Positions 17,264 through 26,832 of a stretch of 64,000 nucleotides of DNA are shown in pieces; the stretch's first letter is position 1; every line of letters starts with the position of its first letter. Both the position numbers and the translations under genes were made by a program. The DNA is taken from contig NZ_PDKG01000001.1 in NCBI RefSeq assembly GCF_004116725.1, positions 124,001 through 188,000 on the forward strand, read 5' to 3'. A model generated the notes under the pieces. That model did no database searches. It had not been told where the DNA came from and saw nothing but the letters and a program-made list of their open reading frames with translations. The DNA is from Arcobacter sp. CECT 8986 (GTDB lineage: Bacteria; Campylobacterota; Campylobacteria; Campylobacterales; Arcobacteraceae).

Positions 17264-17277
17264 GCTACTACTTTTTA
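17246..17277. terminator. Palindrome between emrB-like and eptA-like genes
   Basis: AAAAAGCAGTAGCTT is followed at once by AAGCTACTACTTTTT, a near-perfect 15-bp palindrome with one mismatched pair. It contains the stop codon of the MFS gene and ends at the edge of the converging gene. T runs on both strands suggest a two-way terminator. Confidence 0.6.
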
Positions 17278-18981
17278 TGACTGAAGTTTTATTTTTTCAT
17301 AAACAAATGGATTTTTAAGTAGATTTCTTAATGGTTTTTTATTTTCAGGGTCACCAATATATATAGGTCTTTGTACAAAATCTTCACTTAAAATACTTCT
17401 TGATAAATCTAAACTATCATATCTTAACTTTGCAAAATCACTAAAAGTATAGATTAAATCAGATGAAGAGAAATATCTATTTGTTAAAGCTTTCATTTTA
17501 TTATAATCATTTGTTTCTCTGTATTTTTTATTTCCATATATAATAAAAGGCACAGTATACATAGAATCAGTTGGAGCATATTCATTTCTTCCCATTTTCA
17601 ATTTATTTACATCATCATAAACTTCTTCACCATGGTCTGAAAGATATAAAAGAGATGCACTTGTATCTAGTTTTTTAACATCATTAATTAAATTTGATAC
17701 AACATAATCATTATAATAGACTGCATTATCATAATTATTATAAGTTTCTGTCTTTTTTTCATCTAATTTATCAGATACTTTTAATCCACTAAATTTTGCA
17801 AATTTTTCTGGATATCTATAATCATATCTTGAGTGAGTACCAAGTAAATGAACTACAATAAATTTTTTCTTAACTTCTTTATCATTTAATACATCATTAA
17901 AAGGTTTTAATACTACTTCATCATAAGAAGAACTATTTTGTCTTCTATTGTTATTTAAATATACTTGATGGTCTACCATTTTAGAAAATGTAGTAAGCAT
18001 AGTATTTCTTTTTGTTTGTGTTTGTTGATTTGTAATCCAATATGTTTCATAACCTGCTTGTTTCATAATATTTAATAGATTTACTTTTTTCAAGTACATA
18101 TTAGGATGTTTTTCATCAGCAAAAGTTAGTGCTTGTTGTAATACTTCAATTGTATATGGTCTAGGTGAATATACATTTTTAAACACTACTAAATCATCTT
18201 TCATTTTATTTAATCTAGGAGTTGTATCTCTTTCATATCCATATAAACTCATTCTATTTCTATTTGTAGATTCGCCAATAACTAAAACAATAGTATTTAC
18301 ATTACTACTTGAATCTTTTAAGTTTTCAACAGGAGGCAATGTACTATTTTTTGCAAGTAGTTCTTCCATATCATCTAGTACTTTTTTATAATTAATATAA
18401 CCAAATACGATATTCCAAGGTGTTGCAGATTGCATTCTTGTCATTTGTCTGTTAACTGAGCTATCAAATTTAGAAGTTCCAAATATATATCCTTTTGCAA
18501 ATGAAGCAGTTGAAATAAATAAAAACAATGGAACTAAGATAAGTTTTTTAGAAATAACAAGATTTATATTATCCAATCTCTTCCAAAAGAAATATGGAAT
18601 AACAGAATAAACAATAAATGCTGGAATCATCCACCATGAGAAATAAGTATGTAAAAACTCATTTGATTCCACAATATTTGACTCAAATATAATATAAATT
18701 ACACTTTGAGAAAACTCTTGTTTGTAAATAAAAAAATAAAAAAGACTTGGCAATGAACCAATCCATGAAATAACACCAATAATTAAAGCAAGTCTTTTTG
18801 AATATTTTTGAAATAAAAGAACAGGAACTAGCCAAAGAAAAGATGCATAAAAAGATTCTCTTAATCCTATAAATCCTGAAACATTAAAAGCAAAACATAA
18901 AGTTTGATAAACAGCTGAGAAATAAAAGAAAAAAAGTAGATACTTAAAAAGCATAAGTATATTGTTTTTTTTGAAATCCAT
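17275..18981 (-). CDS. Phosphoethanolamine transferase (EptA/EptC-like)
   Basis: 568 residues. Five N-terminal membrane helices (to about residue 170) are followed by a periplasmic sulfatase-fold domain. The nucleophile Thr lies in LVIGESTNRNRMSLYGYERD (about 232-251), and metal ligands include the Asp-His of LYLSDHGEEVYD. Enzymes of this family move phosphoethanolamine from phosphatidylethanolamine to lipid A; in Campylobacter EptC also modifies the flagellar rod. Such modification reduces polymyxin binding. It is a single gene; which target is modified here cannot be told. Confidence 0.92.
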   Translation of the reverse strand: MDFKKNNILMLFKYLLFFFYFSAVYQTLCFAFNVSGFIGLRESFYASFLWLVPVLLFQKYSKRLALIIGVISWIGSLPSLFYFFIYKQEFSQSVIYIIFESNIVESNEFLHTYFSWWMIPAFIVYSVIPYFFWKRLDNINLVISKKLILVPLFLFISTASFAKGYIFGTSKFDSSVNRQMTRMQSATPWNIVFGYINYKKVLDDMEELLAKNSTLPPVENLKDSSSNVNTIVLVIGESTNRNRMSLYGYERDTTPRLNKMKDDLVVFKNVYSPRPYTIEVLQQALTFADEKHPNMYLKKVNLLNIMKQAGYETYWITNQQTQTKRNTMLTTFSKMVDHQVYLNNNRRQNSSSYDEVVLKPFNDVLNDKEVKKKFIVVHLLGTHSRYDYRYPEKFAKFSGLKVSDKLDEKKTETYNNYDNAVYYNDYVVSNLINDVKKLDTSASLLYLSDHGEEVYDDVNKLKMGRNEYAPTDSMYTVPFIIYGNKKYRETNDYNKMKALTNRYFSSSDLIYTFSDFAKLRYDSLDLSRSILSEDFVQRPIYIGDPENKKPLRNLLKNPFVYEKIKLQS

Positions 18982-19162
18982 GAAACCCCTTAGTTAAGAA
19001 AATTAAGTGAAATCATAAACTTTTAAAGTGAATGAACAGTGAACAAAATATGAATTTAATATGAACACCATTCATAAAAAATAATAAAAGCATAGAGATA
19101 ATATATAAATATATTATAATTTTTTTTTGATATACTTACAACTTATTATGTGGAGTAAAATA

Positions 19163-19324
19163 ATGCTAAAAAAAATAAAAAATATCTTTAAGAAGAAAAC
19201 ATTTTCTTGTATAGTTTGGGATGGCAAATGTATGAAATATCTAGAACTTACTCAAGAAAGAATTGATGAAATAAACAATGACCCAAAATATAAAGAGTGG
19301 TCAGTAACTATTAATGAGAACTAA
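19163..19324 (+). CDS. Small basic protein of unknown function
   Basis: 53 residues from the ATG at 19163, which has a TGGAG ribosome site eight bases upstream; an earlier ATG at 19127 has none. The N-terminus is lysine-rich (MLKKIKNIFKKKTF), then CIVWDGKCMKYLELTQERIDEINNDPKYKEW. Two cysteines lie six residues apart. I do not recognise the family. It is flanked by long AT-rich spacers. Confidence 0.6.
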   Translation: MLKKIKNIFKKKTFSCIVWDGKCMKYLELTQERIDEINNDPKYKEWSVTINEN

Positions 19325-19380
19325 CTCTTATAAAATCATTAGCTAACTTTAAAAATATCATTCAAAAAACTTTAGATTCT

Positions 19381-19443
19381 TAACAAAATTTATTTAATCT
19401 TTATTTTTGTAATATTTTGTTAAAATTTTGTAATATTTTGTTG
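19381..19443 (+). repeat. Iteron-like direct repeats upstream of the 321-aa gene
   Basis: TTTTGTAATATTTTGTT occurs at 19405-19421 and again at 19426-19442, a 21-bp period (two helical turns). The inverted sequence TAACAAAAT lies at 19381-19389, so the ATTTTGTTA core appears three times in mixed orientation. The block ends 35 bp before the next start codon, consistent with a set of protein-binding sites over a promoter. Confidence 0.6.
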
Positions 19444-19477
19444 AAAAAATGTTTTATTTTAGAAAAAGGCAATTATT

Positions 19478-20443
19478 ATGAAAGATGAATATTTTGATTT
19501 AAGTGATTATTTAGAAGATGAAGAGATAAGTTTTTTAAAGCAAAAGCATAAAGTTCTTCTTTTAAATAAAGAAAAAATTAAACATTTTTTACAAAGTAAT
19601 GCAAGCCTAAAAGAACAAATCACTCAAATAAAAAAAGATTTAGATATTGATATATCTGTATTTACATATAGAAATTTTTTACTAAAATATTTTAAAAAAA
19701 GCTATGAATTTCATAATATAAATAAAGTATTTTTAAACTCAAAACACACAATATTACAACTAATTTTAAATGAAAATTTTAAAGATTCTGAAAAGATATA
19801 TAATTATTTATTGGATAATGGTTGTTTAAAAAAAGTTAAAAATGATGACACTAGTTTTATCTCATATAATGAATTTACCAAACTATTAAAAGATTATATC
19901 AAAACAAAAAATCTAAAAATAGAAATTATCGAAAAATCACAAGAGAATTCTATTGATGAAATTGATATAAAAAAAGAGATTCAAGATACAGAAATTGCAG
20001 AGATTATTGATAATACAAAAAGAATTGATATTGAACTTATTGATGGCTCTTTTGAAACTCATAATTTATCTTTTTTAAGAAACTACTATTTAGTTGAAGA
20101 GTTTAGTGGAAGAAAATTCGATTTTATAGAAAAAAATCTTTTTATGGTTCCAGCTTCAAATGAAGGAAAAATTTATAATTTTGCTAATATTAAAAAACTT
20201 ATAAAACATTCAAAATTATTGCCTCAATACTCTCTTGTATTACATGATAATTCAAATATTGATTCAAAAATATATATTTATAGATATATAAATGGTGATT
20301 TACTATTTTTGGATAGTTTTAGTTCACTTTTAATTGTAGATATTCTTGATTTGATTAATAGTTCTATTAAAAGATTTTTAAATATATATAATATATATTT
20401 TCAAAAAGAAAATGAGTATATCTCTTATGAAAATAGATTTTAA
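19478..20443 (+). CDS. Unknown protein with a possible N-terminal helix-turn-helix
   Basis: 321 residues, no signal peptide or membrane segment. Residues about 35-70 (SNASLKEQITQIKKDLDIDI, SVFTYRNFLLKYFKK) resemble the helix-turn-helix found at the start of some plasmid TraK/KfrA-like proteins. The middle is charged and probably disordered, and the C-terminal 130 residues (IDIELIDGSFETHNLSFLRN onward) look like a separate folded domain. A set of 17-bp direct repeats lies just upstream, which would suit autoregulation. The 3' end overlaps the stop of the converging amidotransferase gene by 4 nt. Function not recognised. Confidence 0.7.
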   Translation: MKDEYFDLSDYLEDEEISFLKQKHKVLLLNKEKIKHFLQSNASLKEQITQIKKDLDIDISVFTYRNFLLKYFKKSYEFHNINKVFLNSKHTILQLILNENFKDSEKIYNYLLDNGCLKKVKNDDTSFISYNEFTKLLKDYIKTKNLKIEIIEKSQENSIDEIDIKKEIQDTEIAEIIDNTKRIDIELIDGSFETHNLSFLRNYYLVEEFSGRKFDFIEKNLFMVPASNEGKIYNFANIKKLIKHSKLLPQYSLVLHDNSNIDSKIYIYRYINGDLLFLDSFSSLLIVDILDLINSSIKRFLNIYNIYFQKENEYISYENRF

Positions 20444-21108
20444 ACCTTGCAAGCTTTTACAAAATCATCAAATATCTTCCTATGCTCTTTCATATAAAAA
20501 AGATACTCAGGATGCCACTGTACAGCTAACATAAAAGGATAATTTTTCTTTTCAATAGCTTGAATCAATCCTTTATACTTTGCTGTAACTTTTAAATCTT
20601 CCCCTACTTTGTTTATTGCTTGATTATGAAGACTATTTGCTTTGAGTTTTCTCTTTTTAATAATATCAAAAAGCCTACTTCTTTTTTTTATAATTATATC
20701 TTTTATTGGAAAAATTGAATTTTTATGGATTAGATACTCTTCAATATCTAAAACTGTTGGATACAAATCACCATCAAAAAAGATATTTAGGAGTTGTGCT
20801 CCACGACATATTCCAAATATAGGAATTCTTCTTTTTACTGCTTTATTTATCATAGTAAGTTCAAAAGCATCTCTTTTTTTATCAAGTTTAGTATTATGTG
20901 CTTCTTTTTTACCACCATATAATAGTGGATTTATATCACTTCCTCCACTTAATATCAAACCATCAATTACTTCACTTGAAGTATGTTCATTAGGACGTAA
21001 ACTTACAGCTTTTGCATTTGCTAAAAAAAGACTAAATCTTATGAATATTTCTGCAAGTTTATTACCATTATTTGGTAAGCATATTCCTATTACTGGCTTT
21101 TTACGCAT
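20440..21108 (-). CDS. Class I glutamine amidotransferase-like hydrolase (PuuD-like)
   Basis: 222 residues of the gamma-glutamyl-GABA hydrolase type. It has GLILSGGSDINPLLYGG (about 52-68), the nucleophile Cys in IFGICRGAQLLN (about 96-107) and the His/Glu pair in VQWHPEY. The family hydrolyses gamma-glutamyl amides. Its start lies 19 bp inside the end of the amidoligase gene, so the two are translationally coupled; this pairing is known from comparative genomics of amidoligases. It may remove or proof-read the conjugates made by its neighbour. Confidence 0.88.
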   Translation of the reverse strand: MRKKPVIGICLPNNGNKLAEIFIRFSLFLANAKAVSLRPNEHTSSEVIDGLILSGGSDINPLLYGGKKEAHNTKLDKKRDAFELTMINKAVKRRIPIFGICRGAQLLNIFFDGDLYPTVLDIEEYLIHKNSIFPIKDIIIKKRSRLFDIIKKRKLKANSLHNQAINKVGEDLKVTAKYKGLIQAIEKKNYPFMLAVQWHPEYLFYMKEHRKIFDDFVKACKV

Positions 21109-22088
21109 TTGCTAACTTTCTCTTCCCAAGCAGTGAAGTTTACAAATTTTTCTAAATGAAATAGATATTTTTTACTTAATTTTGATAAAAGTTTTTTATC
21201 ATTTGCTACTCTTTCCACATATAACCATCTATTCCACTCATCTGATATTTTCCAATCTTCTTCACCTACTAAAGAGTTTGATAATCTATAATGAAAGGCA
21301 GGTCTTGGATTTATTTTCTGTTTTTTTAGACTTTTTCTTACTTTTGTTTCATCAATAAAAGCAAATATTGGTAACATATCTAAAGATCTATTTCTTGTGG
21401 GATTATATTTTATATAGTCATCTATAAATTCATCAAGTGTTGGATTATAATTTTCTGACAATATTTTCATAATATAATCATCTTTGAATTTATCAATATA
21501 TGGTGTGATTTTTCTTGTAATATCTATTTTGGCATCTTTTACTAAAAAACTCTCCAAAATAACATATGCACGTAAATAATCAAGTAATGACTGCACGTCC
21601 AAAGATACAACTTCAATATTTATATGTAATCCAAAAGCATTATAAACTTTTTTTCTAGTTCCTTCTGCACCTACTTTGTACAGACTATCACTCAAGTCAT
21701 TAATCATAGATATTTTATCTAAAGGAATAGGAGGAGTACTTATCTCATATGGAACTAAATCTTTAGATATAGAACCTATCATATCTTCAACTTTTTCAAC
21801 TTTTGATTCATCAATTTGCATACCAATCTTATCAAAAAAATCTACTACATTTGATTTTAGTTTTTGCTTTGTCAAAAGTTCAAAGTCAAGTTCAGCAACA
21901 AATTTTCCAAATTCACTATCAAAAGTATAAAGAAAATTATTTACTCTATTCTCTTTTAGATTATAAGTTTTTTTTAGTAGTGATACTACTCTTTTCATTC
22001 TCATATTTGAGAACTCTATTTCAAAACCAACTTTTCTTATATTACCCTCATAGTTTTGAGTCATTTTTGGCATTTTGAAGCTATTCAT
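21090..22088 (-). CDS. Amidoligase-family enzyme (glutamine-synthetase-like fold)
   Basis: 332 residues. The N-terminal RKVGFEIEFSNM is the FGxEiEf-type ATP/metal strand of the COOH-NH2 (amido)ligases. Later family blocks are AFGLHINIEVVSLDVQSLLD (conserved His, about 166-185) and NPTRNRSLDMLPIFAFI. Members are predicted to form an amide or peptide bond using ATP. It begins with a good AAAAGG site, is divergent from the ectoine operon, and overlaps the PuuD-like gene. The substrate is unknown; a gamma-glutamyl conjugate is suggested only by the partner. Confidence 0.8.
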   Translation of the reverse strand: MNSFKMPKMTQNYEGNIRKVGFEIEFSNMRMKRVVSLLKKTYNLKENRVNNFLYTFDSEFGKFVAELDFELLTKQKLKSNVVDFFDKIGMQIDESKVEKVEDMIGSISKDLVPYEISTPPIPLDKISMINDLSDSLYKVGAEGTRKKVYNAFGLHINIEVVSLDVQSLLDYLRAYVILESFLVKDAKIDITRKITPYIDKFKDDYIMKILSENYNPTLDEFIDDYIKYNPTRNRSLDMLPIFAFIDETKVRKSLKKQKINPRPAFHYRLSNSLVGEEDWKISDEWNRWLYVERVANDKKLLSKLSKKYLFHLEKFVNFTAWEEKVSKCVKSQ

Positions 22089-22264
22089 TTTTTACCTTTT
22101 TTAATAATTGGTTTAAATAAATTATAACAGCAAGTTCTTAAATATAAATTATTTTTAAATCTAATTTTTTATTATTTTTATATAAAAAATACATATTTTA
22201 TGGATTATTTTTCTTTTTTTGTTTAATTTTTCTCTAAGTTTATTATGTTAAATTTACACCATTG

Positions 22265-22303
22265 ATGTAATTTATTTACATTATATATGTAATTTATTTA
22301 CAT
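22265..22303 (+). promoter_or_regulatory. Two tandem palindromic operators upstream of ectA
   Basis: The 17-bp sequence ATGTAATTTATTTACAT occurs at 22265-22281 and again, identically, at 22287-22303. Each is a 6-bp inverted repeat (ATGTAA/TTACAT) with a 5-bp spacer; the period is 22 bp. They end 21 bp before the ectA start. This looks like the binding site of a dimeric regulator controlling ectoine synthesis. No regulator gene (for example EctR) is adjacent. Confidence 0.7.
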
Positions 22304-22324
22304 TAAAATTGAAAGGATTTAACA

Positions 22325-22822
22325 ATGGGAACCCCGATTAAATTAAGTGAGCCTGATAAGTCAGATGGCAAGGAAATCTTTAATTTAATAAATAGATGTA
22401 AACCACTAGACGTAAATTCTGAGTACTTGTATCTATTACAATCTACATATTTTAGTAATACTTGTAGTGTTGCAAAAATGGATAATAACGTTATAGGATT
22501 TATCTCTGGTTATTTAGTACCAAAGAGGAGTGATACACTCTTTATATGGCAAGTAGCAGTTGATGAAACAGCAAGAGGAAAATCAGTTGCAAAAAATCTA
22601 CTTTTAGAGATATTAAATAGAGAGTGTAATAATCAAGTAAATTACATTCATACTACTATCTCTCCAGATAACAAAGCATCACAAAGATTTTTTGAAAAGT
22701 TTGCAAATGATTTTGATGCAAATATAGAATCTTCTACTTTTTTAGAGATTGAAGATTTTAATAATGCACATGAAAAAGAGGTCTTATACAAAATTGGACC
22801 ATTAAACAAAGGGAAAAAATGA
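22325..22822 (+). CDS. ectA: L-2,4-diaminobutyrate acetyltransferase EctA
   Basis: 165 residues with the GNAT fold: the acetyl-CoA pocket is in VAVDETARGKSVAKNLLLEI (about 77-96), followed by TTISPDNKASQRFFEKFA, which is typical of EctA. It acetylates 2,4-diaminobutyrate to N-gamma-acetyl-diaminobutyrate, the second committed step of ectoine synthesis. It is the first gene of ectA-ectB-ectC-ask and is preceded by the tandem operators. It has an AAAGGA ribosome site and overlaps ectB by 4 nt. Confidence 0.96.
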   Translation: MGTPIKLSEPDKSDGKEIFNLINRCKPLDVNSEYLYLLQSTYFSNTCSVAKMDNNVIGFISGYLVPKRSDTLFIWQVAVDETARGKSVAKNLLLEILNRECNNQVNYIHTTISPDNKASQRFFEKFANDFDANIESSTFLEIEDFNNAHEKEVLYKIGPLNKGKK

Positions 22823-24099
22823 GAATATTTGAAAATTTAGAATCTGAAGTTAGAGGTTATATTAGAAGCTTTCCAACTATTTTTGAAAAGTCAAAAGCTG
22901 CGATATTAACAAACGAACAAGGTGAAGATTATATTGATTTTTTTGCCGGAGCTGGAACATTAAACTATGGACACAATAATGAACACATAAGTCAAGCACT
23001 TGTCGAATATATCCAAAAAGACGGTGTTGTACATGGATTAGATATGGCAACAACTGCAAAAAAAGAGTTTTTACAAACCTTCAATGATACTATTTTAGTT
23101 CCTAGAAACTTAGATTATAAAGTTCAATTTACAGGACCTACTGGAACAAATGCAGTAGAAACTGCACTAAAACTTGCAAGATTAGTAAAAGGAAGAAGTA
23201 ATATTGTATGTTTTACAAATGGTTTTCATGGATTAACTCAAGGTTCATCTTCAGTTACAGGAAACAATGATTATAGAGATGAAAGCTATATTAGTAGAAC
23301 AAATGCAACTTTTATGCCTTTTGATAGTTATTTTGGTGATATGAATACTATGGCTTATTTTAGAAAGTTTTTAGAAGATAGTAGTAGTGGTCTTGATACT
23401 CCAGCAGCTGTAATTGTAGAAACAATACAAGGTGAAGGTGGAATAAATGTAGCTAGTAAAGAGTGGTTACAAGAACTTGAATCAATTTGTAGAGAGTATG
23501 ATATTTTACTAATTATTGATGATATTCAAGTAGGAAATGGAAGAAGTGGAGAGTTCTTTTCATTTGAATTTGCTGGAATCACTCCTGATATCGTAACAAT
23601 GTCAAAATCAATTGGTGGTGGTTTACCAATGGCACTTGTTTTACTAAGACCTGACCTAGACCAATGGAGACCAGGAGAACACACAGGTACTTTTAGAGGT
23701 AACAATTTAGCTTTTGTTGCTGCTAAAGTTGCTATTGAACAGTACTGGCACAACGATGATTTAAGTAATGCAGTTAAGTACAAAGAAAAAGTATTAAGAC
23801 AAAGACTTGAAGAAATTGCAAATAAAGTAAAAGATGATTTACAAATAGAAGTAAGAGGTAGAGGACTTGCATATGGGTTTGATATAAAAGATGATACATC
23901 AATAGCTTCTGATTTATCAAAATATGCATTTGAAGAAAAATTAATAGTTGAAACTTGTGGTAGTGAAGACCAAATAGTTAAATTTTTACCTCCTTTAATC
24001 ATCGATGAAGATACTTTAGTTGAAGGTTTAAATAGATTTGAAAAAGCTGTAATTAGATTAGTTGAAGAGAAAAAAGAAAAATTGTCGGGAGAATTTTAA
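22819..24099 (+). CDS. ectB: Diaminobutyrate-2-oxoglutarate aminotransferase EctB
   Basis: 426 residues, a class III PLP aminotransferase of normal EctB length. Visible are FTGPTGTNAVETALKLAR, the cofactor Asp in LLIIDDIQVGNGRSGEFF and the Schiff-base Lys in TMSKSIGGGLPMALV (about 257). It converts aspartate semialdehyde and glutamate to 2,4-diaminobutyrate. It overlaps ectA (ATGA) and is followed one base later by the ectC start. Confidence 0.97.
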   Translation: MRIFENLESEVRGYIRSFPTIFEKSKAAILTNEQGEDYIDFFAGAGTLNYGHNNEHISQALVEYIQKDGVVHGLDMATTAKKEFLQTFNDTILVPRNLDYKVQFTGPTGTNAVETALKLARLVKGRSNIVCFTNGFHGLTQGSSSVTGNNDYRDESYISRTNATFMPFDSYFGDMNTMAYFRKFLEDSSSGLDTPAAVIVETIQGEGGINVASKEWLQELESICREYDILLIIDDIQVGNGRSGEFFSFEFAGITPDIVTMSKSIGGGLPMALVLLRPDLDQWRPGEHTGTFRGNNLAFVAAKVAIEQYWHNDDLSNAVKYKEKVLRQRLEEIANKVKDDLQIEVRGRGLAYGFDIKDDTSIASDLSKYAFEEKLIVETCGSEDQIVKFLPPLIIDEDTLVEGLNRFEKAVIRLVEEKKEKLSGEF

Positions 24100-24100
24100 T

Positions 24101-24496
24101 ATGATAGTAAGAGATATAAACAAAGATATTATAGGTACACCAAAAGAAGTTCATGCACAAGAGGGTCAATGGGTTAGTAGAAGAATGCTTTTAAAAGGTG
24201 ATAACATGGGATTTTCTTTTCATGAAACAATCATCAAAGCAAATACAAAAACACATATTCACTATCAAAACCATTTAGAAGCTGTTTATTGTGTAGCAGG
24301 AAATGGGAAAATAGAAGACCTTAAAACAGGAATTGTACATGAAATATATGATGGAGTTATGTATGCTTTAAATGAGCATGATGACCATAATTTATATGGT
24401 GGAAGTGAAGATATGAGACTTATATGTGTATTTAATCCTCCTATTAAAGGAACAGAAAACCACGATGAGAATGGTGTTTATCCCTTAGAAGACTAA
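24101..24496 (+). CDS. ectC: L-ectoine synthase EctC
   Basis: 131 residues from the ATG at 24101, which gives MIVRDINKDIIGTPKEVHA, the usual EctC N-terminus; an upstream in-frame ATG lies within ectB and is not used. A cupin core is visible (KTHIHYQNHLEAVYCVAGNG, LNEHDDHNLYGGSEDMRLIC). It cyclises N-gamma-acetyl-diaminobutyrate to ectoine. The GGGAG site lies in the end of ectB. No ectD hydroxylase gene follows, so hydroxyectoine is not expected from this locus. Confidence 0.97.
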   Translation: MIVRDINKDIIGTPKEVHAQEGQWVSRRMLLKGDNMGFSFHETIIKANTKTHIHYQNHLEAVYCVAGNGKIEDLKTGIVHEIYDGVMYALNEHDDHNLYGGSEDMRLICVFNPPIKGTENHDENGVYPLED

Positions 24497-24543
24497 TCAA
24501 AAAAAATACTTCAAACACAATAAAAAAACTAAGGGAAATATTT

Positions 24544-25920
24544 ATGAAAGTATGTAAATTTGGTGGTAGTTCAGTAAAGAACTCCACCCAAATAAAGAAG
24601 ATTATAGAGATAGTAAAAAGAGATGACAAAAGACAAGTTATAGTAGTTTCAGCACCAGGAAGAGATGAAACATATGATGAAAAAATAACAGACCATTTAT
24701 TAAATTTAGCAACACAAGGTCTACACTTTTTAGAACATAAAATTGAAGTATCAGTAGAGAATAGTTTTGAAGCTATTATGTCAAAATATGAGAAATTATG
24801 TGATGATTTACAAATATCTAAAGATAATATTTTAGATAATTTGAAAAATGATTTACAAAACTGCAAACTTCAAGATGATAAAAAAATAGCCTTTTTCCTA
24901 TCAAGAGGTGAACACTACAATGCAAAAATTATTGCAAAATATATGAAAAAAGTAGGTATAAACATAAAACTTATGTTGCCTGAGGATTTTGGATTTATAT
25001 TAAGTGATTGTTATACAGATGGAAAAGTACAAGAGCAAACCTATGCAAATATCAAAAAACATTTAGTTTTAAAAGATAATGAAAAAGTAATAATTCCAGG
25101 TTTTTATGGAATTACAAAAAATAAAGATATTGCAGTTATGAGTAGAGGTGGTTCTGATTTAACTGGTGGTGAGTTAGCTTATGCACTTGATGCAGATATT
25201 TATGAAAACTGGACAGATACAAATGGTGTTTATGAAGTTGACCCAAGAGTAATACCACAAGCAGATGTAATTCCAAGACTTACTTTTAAAGAGTTAAGAC
25301 TACTTAGTTCAAAAGGTTTTAACGTATTTCACTTTAACGCGATGCTAAATTGTAAAAAAAGTAAAATACCAATTAGAGTAAGAAATACAAATAACCCAAC
25401 AAACAAAGGTACAGTAATATTAAGTGAAAGAGTTCCTATGGAAAAATTAGTAGGAATCGCAAAACTTGATAATATGGCATCAATTCATATTCAAAAAGCA
25501 ATGCTAGGAGAAGAAGTTGGATTTACTGCTGAATTACTAAAAATTTTCGGAGAATTTGGAATAAACACTTATCATTATCCTACAGATAAGGATGATTTAG
25601 CTATATTAGTAGAGCAAGAAGATTTAAAAGGAAATATCAATAACTTAAGAAGAGCCATAGATAAGAGATTAAAGCCTGATAATATCTTTATTACTTACTC
25701 TTTATCTGTAATCACTCTTGTAGGAATTGGATTAAAAGAAGACTCTTTTACTATTGTAGATGCGCTTACAGCACTAAAAGAGAATAATATTGCATTTGAA
25801 ATGTTTGATATGAGTCCTTCTAAAATTTCATTTCACATTGGAGTTGCTCAAAATATCTCTGATATAGCGTTGGAGACATTATATGAAAAGTTATTGACAA
25901 AAGATAATTGTATTTGTTAA
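24544..25920 (+). CDS. ask: Ectoine-type aspartate kinase
   Basis: 458 residues. The N-terminal kinase domain starts KVCKFGGSSVKNS, has VMSRGGSDLTGGELAYALDA near 200 and TDTNGVYEVDPR, and is followed by two ACT domains (about 305-450). The Ask_Ect sub-family is encoded in ectoine operons and supplies aspartyl phosphate, the precursor of aspartate semialdehyde, avoiding the feedback control of the main aspartate kinase. It sits 47 bp after ectC and 15 bp before the TPR gene. Confidence 0.95.
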   Translation: MKVCKFGGSSVKNSTQIKKIIEIVKRDDKRQVIVVSAPGRDETYDEKITDHLLNLATQGLHFLEHKIEVSVENSFEAIMSKYEKLCDDLQISKDNILDNLKNDLQNCKLQDDKKIAFFLSRGEHYNAKIIAKYMKKVGINIKLMLPEDFGFILSDCYTDGKVQEQTYANIKKHLVLKDNEKVIIPGFYGITKNKDIAVMSRGGSDLTGGELAYALDADIYENWTDTNGVYEVDPRVIPQADVIPRLTFKELRLLSSKGFNVFHFNAMLNCKKSKIPIRVRNTNNPTNKGTVILSERVPMEKLVGIAKLDNMASIHIQKAMLGEEVGFTAELLKIFGEFGINTYHYPTDKDDLAILVEQEDLKGNINNLRRAIDKRLKPDNIFITYSLSVITLVGIGLKEDSFTIVDALTALKENNIAFEMFDMSPSKISFHIGVAQNISDIALETLYEKLLTKDNCIC

Positions 25921-25935
25921 TAAAGGAAAACTATA

Positions 25936-26832
25936 ATGAAAAAATTGCTACTACTTTTAGTACCACTAATACTATTTACTAGTGCTTATGCAAAAGAGAT
26001 AGAGAAACCAAGTCAAGAGAAAATAAACCAAAGACTAGATAAATTAGAAAAACCCTTATTTACTCCATTTGTTGAAAATTATATTTTAAATGATTTAAAA
26101 CAATTAAGAGAAGATAATAAAAAACTAAAAGTAGAGCTTTACAAAAGGCTAGCTGAAAAAGAAGTAGAAATCTCTACAAATACTATAAACTATGCTACTT
26201 CTACAATCAATAATATTTTTTATATTATTGCAGCTGCCTCTTCATTATTGGTGATTATTGGATTAAATTCAATAAGAGATGTAAATCAAAAGATTAGAAC
26301 AATTGTTGATGAAAAAGTATCTAAAGTAATTGATGATTATGAAAAAAGAATGAGTTTAATAGAAAAAGACCTTGATAAACGTTCAAAACAAGTTCTACAA
26401 AACCAAAAAGAGATTGAAAAGACAAACACTATTCATTCATTATGGATAAGAGCTGCACAAGAGACAACTCCAAGTGGTAAAATTGAAATCTATGATGATA
26501 TTTTGAAAATAAAACCATCAGATGCAGAAGCCTTAACTTACAAAGCAGAAGCAGCTCTTGAACTAGATGAAGCAAACTGGGCTTTACATTTAGCAAATCA
26601 AGCACTTAATATTGATGATGATTATCCAAATGCATTTTATCAAAAAGCAAAAGCAAATGCCGTATTAGGATATAGTGATTTTGCAATAAATGACCTTGAA
26701 AAAGCACTGATGTTAAATGAACAATATATCGAAGAAATAGAGAATGAAGAAGAATTTGATAGTTTAAATGACAATAAAAAATATATAGCATTGATTAAAA
26801 AGTATAAACAAGACAGCGAAACTAATCAATAA
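25936..26832 (+). CDS. TPR membrane protein at the end of the ectoine operon
   Basis: 298 residues: a signal peptide (MKKLLLLLVPLILFTSAYAKE), a charged coiled segment, one membrane helix (INNIFYIIAAASSLLVIIGL, about 95-115), a long coiled coil (about 118-165) and two or three TPR-like helical repeats (about 170-260, such as SDAEALTYKAEAALELDEAN). It follows ask after 15 bp with its own AAAGG-type site and is probably co-transcribed. It has no known role in ectoine synthesis. Topology suggests a membrane-anchored scaffold with TPRs in the cytoplasm, but which side is inference. Confidence 0.75.
   Translation: MKKLLLLLVPLILFTSAYAKEIEKPSQEKINQRLDKLEKPLFTPFVENYILNDLKQLREDNKKLKVELYKRLAEKEVEISTNTINYATSTINNIFYIIAAASSLLVIIGLNSIRDVNQKIRTIVDEKVSKVIDDYEKRMSLIEKDLDKRSKQVLQNQKEIEKTNTIHSLWIRAAQETTPSGKIEIYDDILKIKPSDAEALTYKAEAALELDEANWALHLANQALNIDDDYPNAFYQKAKANAVLGYSDFAINDLEKALMLNEQYIEEIENEEEFDSLNDNKKYIALIKKYKQDSETNQ

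Follow-up and report, generated by a model that had tools for sequence, protein, structure and literature searches.

Iyer, Abhiman, Burroughs and Aravind reportedly predicted, in 2009, a module formed by an Amidoligase_2 protein and a GATase-like peptidase. The description of the Amidoligase_2 family reportedly places its genes in the neighborhood of a GATase-like thiol peptidase.

In polyamine utilization, glutamine synthetase (GS)-type ligases that gamma-glutamylate amines are established, as is PuuD as the hydrolase of gamma-glutamyl-GABA (PMC9397018). Among the auxiliary genes of deep-sea phages, one paper reports amidoligase and glutamine amidotransferase, for which it speculates on a part in nitrogen metabolism; it refers to Iyer et al. 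2009 (PMC10945688). We found no characterized member of the pair in the literature that we searched by titles and the starts of abstracts, a search whose coverage mostly excludes subscription papers. The same literature contained nothing that combines amidoligase with ectoine or amidoligase with peptidase C26.

The gene pair and its predicted enzymes

We describe a pair of this kind in the window (the whole stretch of 64,000 nucleotides that was analyzed), whose host genus (g1) we infer to be Malaciobacter. The features are:

20440..21108, minus strand: class-I GATase-like / Peptidase_C26 protein, 222 aa, ATG start; predicted gamma-glutamyl amide hydrolase (C101, H199, E201); PF07722
21090..22088, minus strand: Amidoligase_2 family protein, 332 aa, ATG start; predicted ATP-dependent carboxylate-amine ligase with a GS/GCS fold; PF12224
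21090..21108, minus strand: 19-bp overlap of the amidoligase and GATase-like frames, from the ORF coordinates
22089..22324, no strand: divergent intergenic region of 236 bp between the amidoligase gene and ectA
22325..24496, plus strand: ectA, ectB and ectC, context genes outside the module

A reading of this DNA made from sequence only had reported the 19-bp overlap, which is exact, and the divergence of the pair from the ectoine operon, which holds: on the opposite strand, the order is ectA-ectB-ectC-aspartokinase. These four genes score above their cut-offs (ectA, TIGR02406, 185 bits vs. 121; ectB, TIGR02407, 642 vs. 552; ectC, PRK13290, 191 vs. 128; aspartokinase, TIGR00657, 236 vs. 209). 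The amidoligase is the only one in its genome. We also noticed a 321-aa protein (19478-20443, plus strand) with no Pfam or NCBIfam match. It is a neighbor of the ect locus in every one of the six Malaciobacter genomes, the one that lacks the pair among them. Farther along is a CptA-like phosphoethanolamine transferase (17275-18981, minus strand; NF012179, 705.8 bits, under the cut-off of 900; PRK10649, 686 bits, over the cut-off of 404).

The amidoligase matches PF12224 with an E-value of 6.4e-62 (210 bits vs. a cut-off of 22) and covers positions 2-244 of the 245 in the profile. Across 74 diverse sequences, 23 positions are invariant. The AlphaFold model (pLDDT 91.1) aligns in VIA to chains of GS and of plant glutamate-cysteine ligase (GCL), with Z of 11.3-12.8 and rmsd of 3.1-4.5 over 192-239 residues; the best match is a GS chain (Z 12.8, rmsd 3.8 over 214 residues). 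In all, 166 of 999 chains reached Z >= 8, and among the 50 matches listed all are of GS type or glutamate-cysteine ligases. Foldseek places YbdK (1r8g, 5.9e-3), plant GCL and GS at the top, with no PDB match at E < 0.001. The model thus has a GS/GCS fold. Profile comparisons were not significant, whether against 2 GCS2 sequences or against 10 of GS, so the fold argument relies on the predicted model. Pfam gave no Gln-synt_C or GCS2 match for the amidoligase, and a sequence search found no solved structure of any Amidoligase_2 member. By eye, a series of motifs (G-x-E-x-E, P-x-E, H-x-N and H-x-R) may resemble the metal- and phosphate-binding motifs of GS. We predict that the amidoligase forms amide bonds at the expense of ATP.

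The partner matches PF07722 (Peptidase_C26, 4.6e-46) and PF00117 (GATase, 9.7e-19). The closest folds to its AlphaFold model (pLDDT 91.4) are Lin1909 (1.6e-20), PuuD (6.4e-20) and SpuA (4.8e-19), with matches to these three across 1e-20 to 1e-15; the GATases of GMP synthases rank behind them, from 3.1e-13. A profile search gives the same order, with Lin1909, PuuD and SpuA as the nearest solved structures. By their PDB titles, SpuA structures include one with glutamate and one with a glutamyl-thioester. The triad C101/H199/E201 is invariant, as are N158 and H161 (alignments of 17 and of 41 sequences). The partner scores well under the cut-offs of two equivalogs, PuuD (NF008471, 93.9 bits vs. 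266) and gamma-glutamyl-CDP-amidate hydrolase (NF045546, 76.1 vs. 250), so it is a relative that would work like PuuD, and is neither enzyme itself. Its sequence and predicted fold lead us to predict that it is a gamma-glutamyl amide hydrolase.

Pairing, neighbors and descent

We looked for the pair in a sample of 104 genomes from the family and in another of 397 genomes from the phylum (Campylobacterota). In the family, 18 of 104 genomes have a PF12224 protein, 17 of them at full length and one (G061) as a weak match (8.3e-4). The partner lies directly downstream at all 17 full-length loci, with overlaps of 19-46 bp. In the phylum sample, 31 of 397 genomes have the amidoligase, 24 of them outside the family; of those 24, the profile recognized 23 and missed one (G340). 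The partner adjoins the amidoligase at 22 of the 23 loci, and the exception ends about 310 bp on, at the end of its contig (L112). Overall, the two genes are paired at 39 of 40 Campylobacterota loci. Because of this adjacency, and because both proteins score far above curated cut-offs, the pair is not a chance arrangement.

The module is common: a wide genome scan yielded at least 589 confirmed relatives, and the partner is present at 75 of the best 80 loci. (A few of these repeat loci counted above: L122 is G078, and L123 is probably L106.) Eleven plasmid records contain the amidoligase; we opened eight of these regions and found the partner in three but not in the other five. The amidoligases without a partner (L092-L095 and L097) are from Rhodovastum, Indioceanicola, Azospirillum and Microvirga, and one of them has conjugation genes and an IS66 transposase nearby.

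The distance matrices of the amidoligases and their partners are strongly correlated (r = 0.83 over 112 pairs; the maximum in 1000 permutations was 0.05). This is expected for genes that move together, and ordinary vertical descent would add to it. In a quick tree of 49 amidoligases, the family's proteins fall into two separate clades, one with Malaciobacter, g5, g10 and g13, and the other with g3, g10, g17 and genomes of two other families. That genus g10 has both types of amidoligase, each at its own locus, suggests transfer. In our best reading, the two genes have been passed on, and have moved, as one unit. Many of its hosts are marine or halophilic.

We rejected a phage or defense origin for the pair: no relative turned up in a scan of viral contigs or, with an E-value limit of 1e-3, in 50,697 records of phages, and PADLOC has no model for either protein. 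The amidoligase has no PHROG; the partner matches phrog_7218.

Beyond the two proteins, no cluster of neighbors appears at more than 9 of the 80 wide-scan loci (the best 80 of at least 589), and no family dominates among the 129 upstream and 140 downstream ORFs, so we rejected a conserved third gene. The most frequent upstream family is HI0933_like (6 of 129) and the most frequent downstream is bPH_2 (8 of 140). For this tally, a script chose up to two ORFs on each side, with L122 left out; it took in 129 of 135 upstream and 140 of 145 downstream ORFs and omitted the longest, so families may be undercounted.

Judging by names read from the translations, four genomes have the pair next to a CTP-synthase-like region and a gene like those for flavin oxidoreductases. 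In another family, the pair lies between trpS-like and serS-like genes (ten genomes). At eight loci from another Campylobacterota family (L098-L102, L104, L108 and L110), a cysteine-containing protein of 76-83 aa precedes the pair, along with two genes that by eye are DUF190-like and CrcB/Fluc-like, again between trpS-like and serS-like genes. Elsewhere, a VTT-domain (DedA-like) gene is directly downstream on the same strand (L167, L178, L193, L194 and L200, from gammaproteobacteria and Fodinicurvata). A gamma-glutamyltranspeptidase is upstream in L172, a glutamate dehydrogenase is present in L145, and an NhaA-type antiporter in L170. We consider these four kinds of neighbor to be weak hints about the pair's role. 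At L143, L151 and L161, a gene for 807-812 aa is directly upstream of the pair, and the copy in L143 is a penicillin amidase (6.7e-204); four upstream ORFs of the wide-scan tally match that family in all.

The proposed cycle and its alternatives

We lean, by a little, towards a self-contained cycle of two genes that makes and breaks a gamma-glutamyl amide. At the cost of ATP, the amidoligase would activate a carboxylate, which is most likely that in the gamma position of glutamate, and couple it to an amine. Encoded by the overlapping downstream gene, the cysteine hydrolase of PuuD/SpuA type would cut the gamma-glutamyl amide via a glutamyl-thioester on Cys101. We infer that glutamate is the acid, that an amine is the acceptor, and that the two reactions oppose each other. 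That the pair makes and breaks an amide was also the proposal of the sequence-only reading, and it is plausible for a ligase with a predicted GS/GCS fold next to a protein that resembles gamma-glutamyl hydrolases. In favor of the cycle are the families and predicted folds of the two proteins, the invariant triad, the pairing and correlated distances, the scatter of the other neighbors, and an analogy to the PuuA/PuuD and GlnA3 pathways (PMC9397018). Against it, we count the lack of a Foldseek PDB match at E < 0.001 and of a significant profile match for the amidoligase, and the amidoligases that have no GATase, at five of the eight opened plasmid regions and 5 of the 80 wide-scan loci (the best 80 of at least 589). 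Two small, stable, paired enzymes, with the amine as the main question, are a tractable target.

We also considered that the two proteins might form one synthetase instead of opposing enzymes, in which the GATase, acting as a glutaminase, would supply the amidoligase with ammonia for the amidation of a carboxylate. The strict pairing and co-evolution of the proteins fit such a synthetase, a translational overlap would suit a fixed complex, and the partner has the class-I GATase fold. There is also a precedent in MurT-GatD, a co-transcribed ligase and GATase that amidates the glutamate of peptidoglycan (PMC3267633). However, in both sequence and fold the partner is closer to the free-standing PuuD and SpuA, and to the uncharacterized Lin1909, than to the GATase subunits of synthetases, and solo amidoligases occur. 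We consider glutamine-dependent amidation unlikely.

A reversible tag on proteins or peptides, which the ligase would attach to a protein through an isopeptide bond and the thiol peptidase would take off, is quite improbable. In its favor, the GS-fold ligases include the Pup ligase PafA. (PafA and Dop are the subject of PMC7947786.) But among the families tallied at the wide-scan loci, neither a conserved gene for a small tag nor a neighbor of proteasome type turned up (small tags could escape the tally), and the partner resembles hydrolases that act on small gamma-glutamyl molecules.

This leaves the ectoine genes. The sequence-only reading had suggested that the pair could act on an osmolyte or on a diamine such as diaminobutyrate. 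Adjacency to ect genes turns out to be confined to a single genus: ectA lies next to the pair at 5 of the 17 family loci, and all five are from Malaciobacter (5 of the genus's 6 genomes). We judged adjacency in flanks of up to about 8-9 kb, shorter at the ends of contigs. Neither ectA nor ectC is near the pair at any of the 12 other family loci, the 23 other phylum loci, or the 79 wide-scan loci from outside Malaciobacter (from the best 80 of at least 589); the one ect-adjacent locus among those 80 is from Malaciobacter halophilus. The sixth Malaciobacter genome (G081) has the ect genes and the 321-aa neighbor and lacks the amidoligase pair. Its region is rearranged, with a cptA-like gene and a 518-aa ORF in between, so it shows absence and offers no clean insertion point; we rejected it as an empty site for the same reason.

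The intergenic region can be divided accordingly. An alignment shows that the ectA-proximal part of 22089-22324, with ATGTAA-like repeats, is also found 5' of ectA in the Malaciobacter genome without the pair; therefore, this block belongs to ectA. The amidoligase-proximal part shows little conservation in the alignment. ATGTAA/TTTACA repeats at 22253-22305, directly upstream of ectA, are kept in the six Malaciobacter genomes and may serve the ectoine genes as an operator. A promoter scan of the 236-bp region found 5, vs. 3.2 expected from shuffled sequences, which is no clear excess. No Rfam match for an RNA element was found in 18900-26000.

Many hosts do not have ectoine synthase (ectC). 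Whether the pair travels with ect genes in related genomes was a question of the sequence-only reading: among the loci covered, the two are linked only in Malaciobacter, and ectC is absent from 21 of the 31 amidoligase genomes in the phylum sample (outside the family, it is present in 3 of 24). ectC is also absent from 32 of 50 named amidoligase genomes, which account for 50 of the 80 wide-scan loci; the 18 with ectC are 17 of 26 isolates and 1 of 24 MAGs. So the pair is common without ect genes, which the sequence-only reading had named, together with a missing salt response, as evidence against its own idea; yet the co-occurrence of ectC is raised at the level of genomes, in tests that ignore kinship. 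In the family, 16 of the 17 genomes that have the full amidoligase also have an ectC above the cut-off, as do 28 of the remaining 87 (Fisher p = 1.9e-6, kinship ignored); in the phylum sample, the counts are 10 of 31 and 19 of 366 (p = 1.4e-5, kinship ignored). Within genus g10, 5 of the 6 genomes that have the full amidoligase carry ectC, and so do 7 that lack it, so no signal is visible in that genus. The raised co-occurrence may reflect a shared marine or halophilic habitat, together with lineage. The marine and halophilic hosts and this co-occurrence leave room for an osmotic role.

That the pair is a side enzyme of the ectoine pathway, reversibly conjugating diaminobutyrate or another intermediate and so tuning the supply of osmolyte, is the least probable explanation: its divergence from ectABC in five of six Malaciobacter genomes and the enrichment of ectC are set against the lack of ect adjacency at every other locus examined, the many amidoligase genomes without ectC, the g10 counts, and a promoter block that is retained where the pair is absent. 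As a general explanation, we rejected a link to ectoine or diaminobutyrate, given the lack of linkage outside Malaciobacter and the many hosts without ect genes. Our best reading is that the place beside ectABC arose in Malaciobacter and that the pair is no dedicated part of ectoine synthesis. The ectoine genes are a poor guide to the pair's substrate and should not be used to guess it.

Returning to the make-and-break cycle, we can speculate further, although we doubt that all of it will hold. The pair might be the entire enzymatic core of an unrecognized gamma-glutamyl-amine cycle, which would keep one amine in a reversible store or a detoxified form. Transfer would have carried it to marine and halophilic bacteria in several phyla, where it would serve osmotic or envelope homeostasis, and in Malaciobacter it would have come to dock beside ectABC secondarily.

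Comparison with known systems

Like MurT-GatD, which is co-transcribed, the pair joins a ligase to a class-I GATase; unlike the window's amidoligase with its predicted GS fold, MurT is a relative of the Mur ligases and does not have that fold (PMC3267633). YbdK and the GCS2 carboxylate-amine ligases are similar in that YbdK is the best Foldseek match of the amidoligase model (1r8g) and the motifs look alike by eye; unlike them, the amidoligase has no GCS2 match in Pfam and no significant profile match.

The pair is most readily compared with PuuA/PuuD of E. coli and PauA/SpuA of P. aeruginosa, which also combine a GS-fold ligase (here predicted) with a PuuD-type hydrolase, and both PuuD and SpuA are among the partner's nearest structures. 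Unlike PuuA and PauA, the amidoligase does not match Gln-synt_C, and the genome's single match to that family is elsewhere. The partner differs from PuuD in scoring 94 bits against the equivalog's cut-off of 266, and unlike in the puu system, no puuB- or puuC-like partner is conserved beside the pair.

The closest counterpart is the module of Iyer and colleagues, which has the same two families, adjacent and in the same order. We found nothing that separates our pair from it; only the location beside the ectoine genes in Malaciobacter is particular. The make-and-break module is said to have been predicted before, and the pair in the window is a further member.
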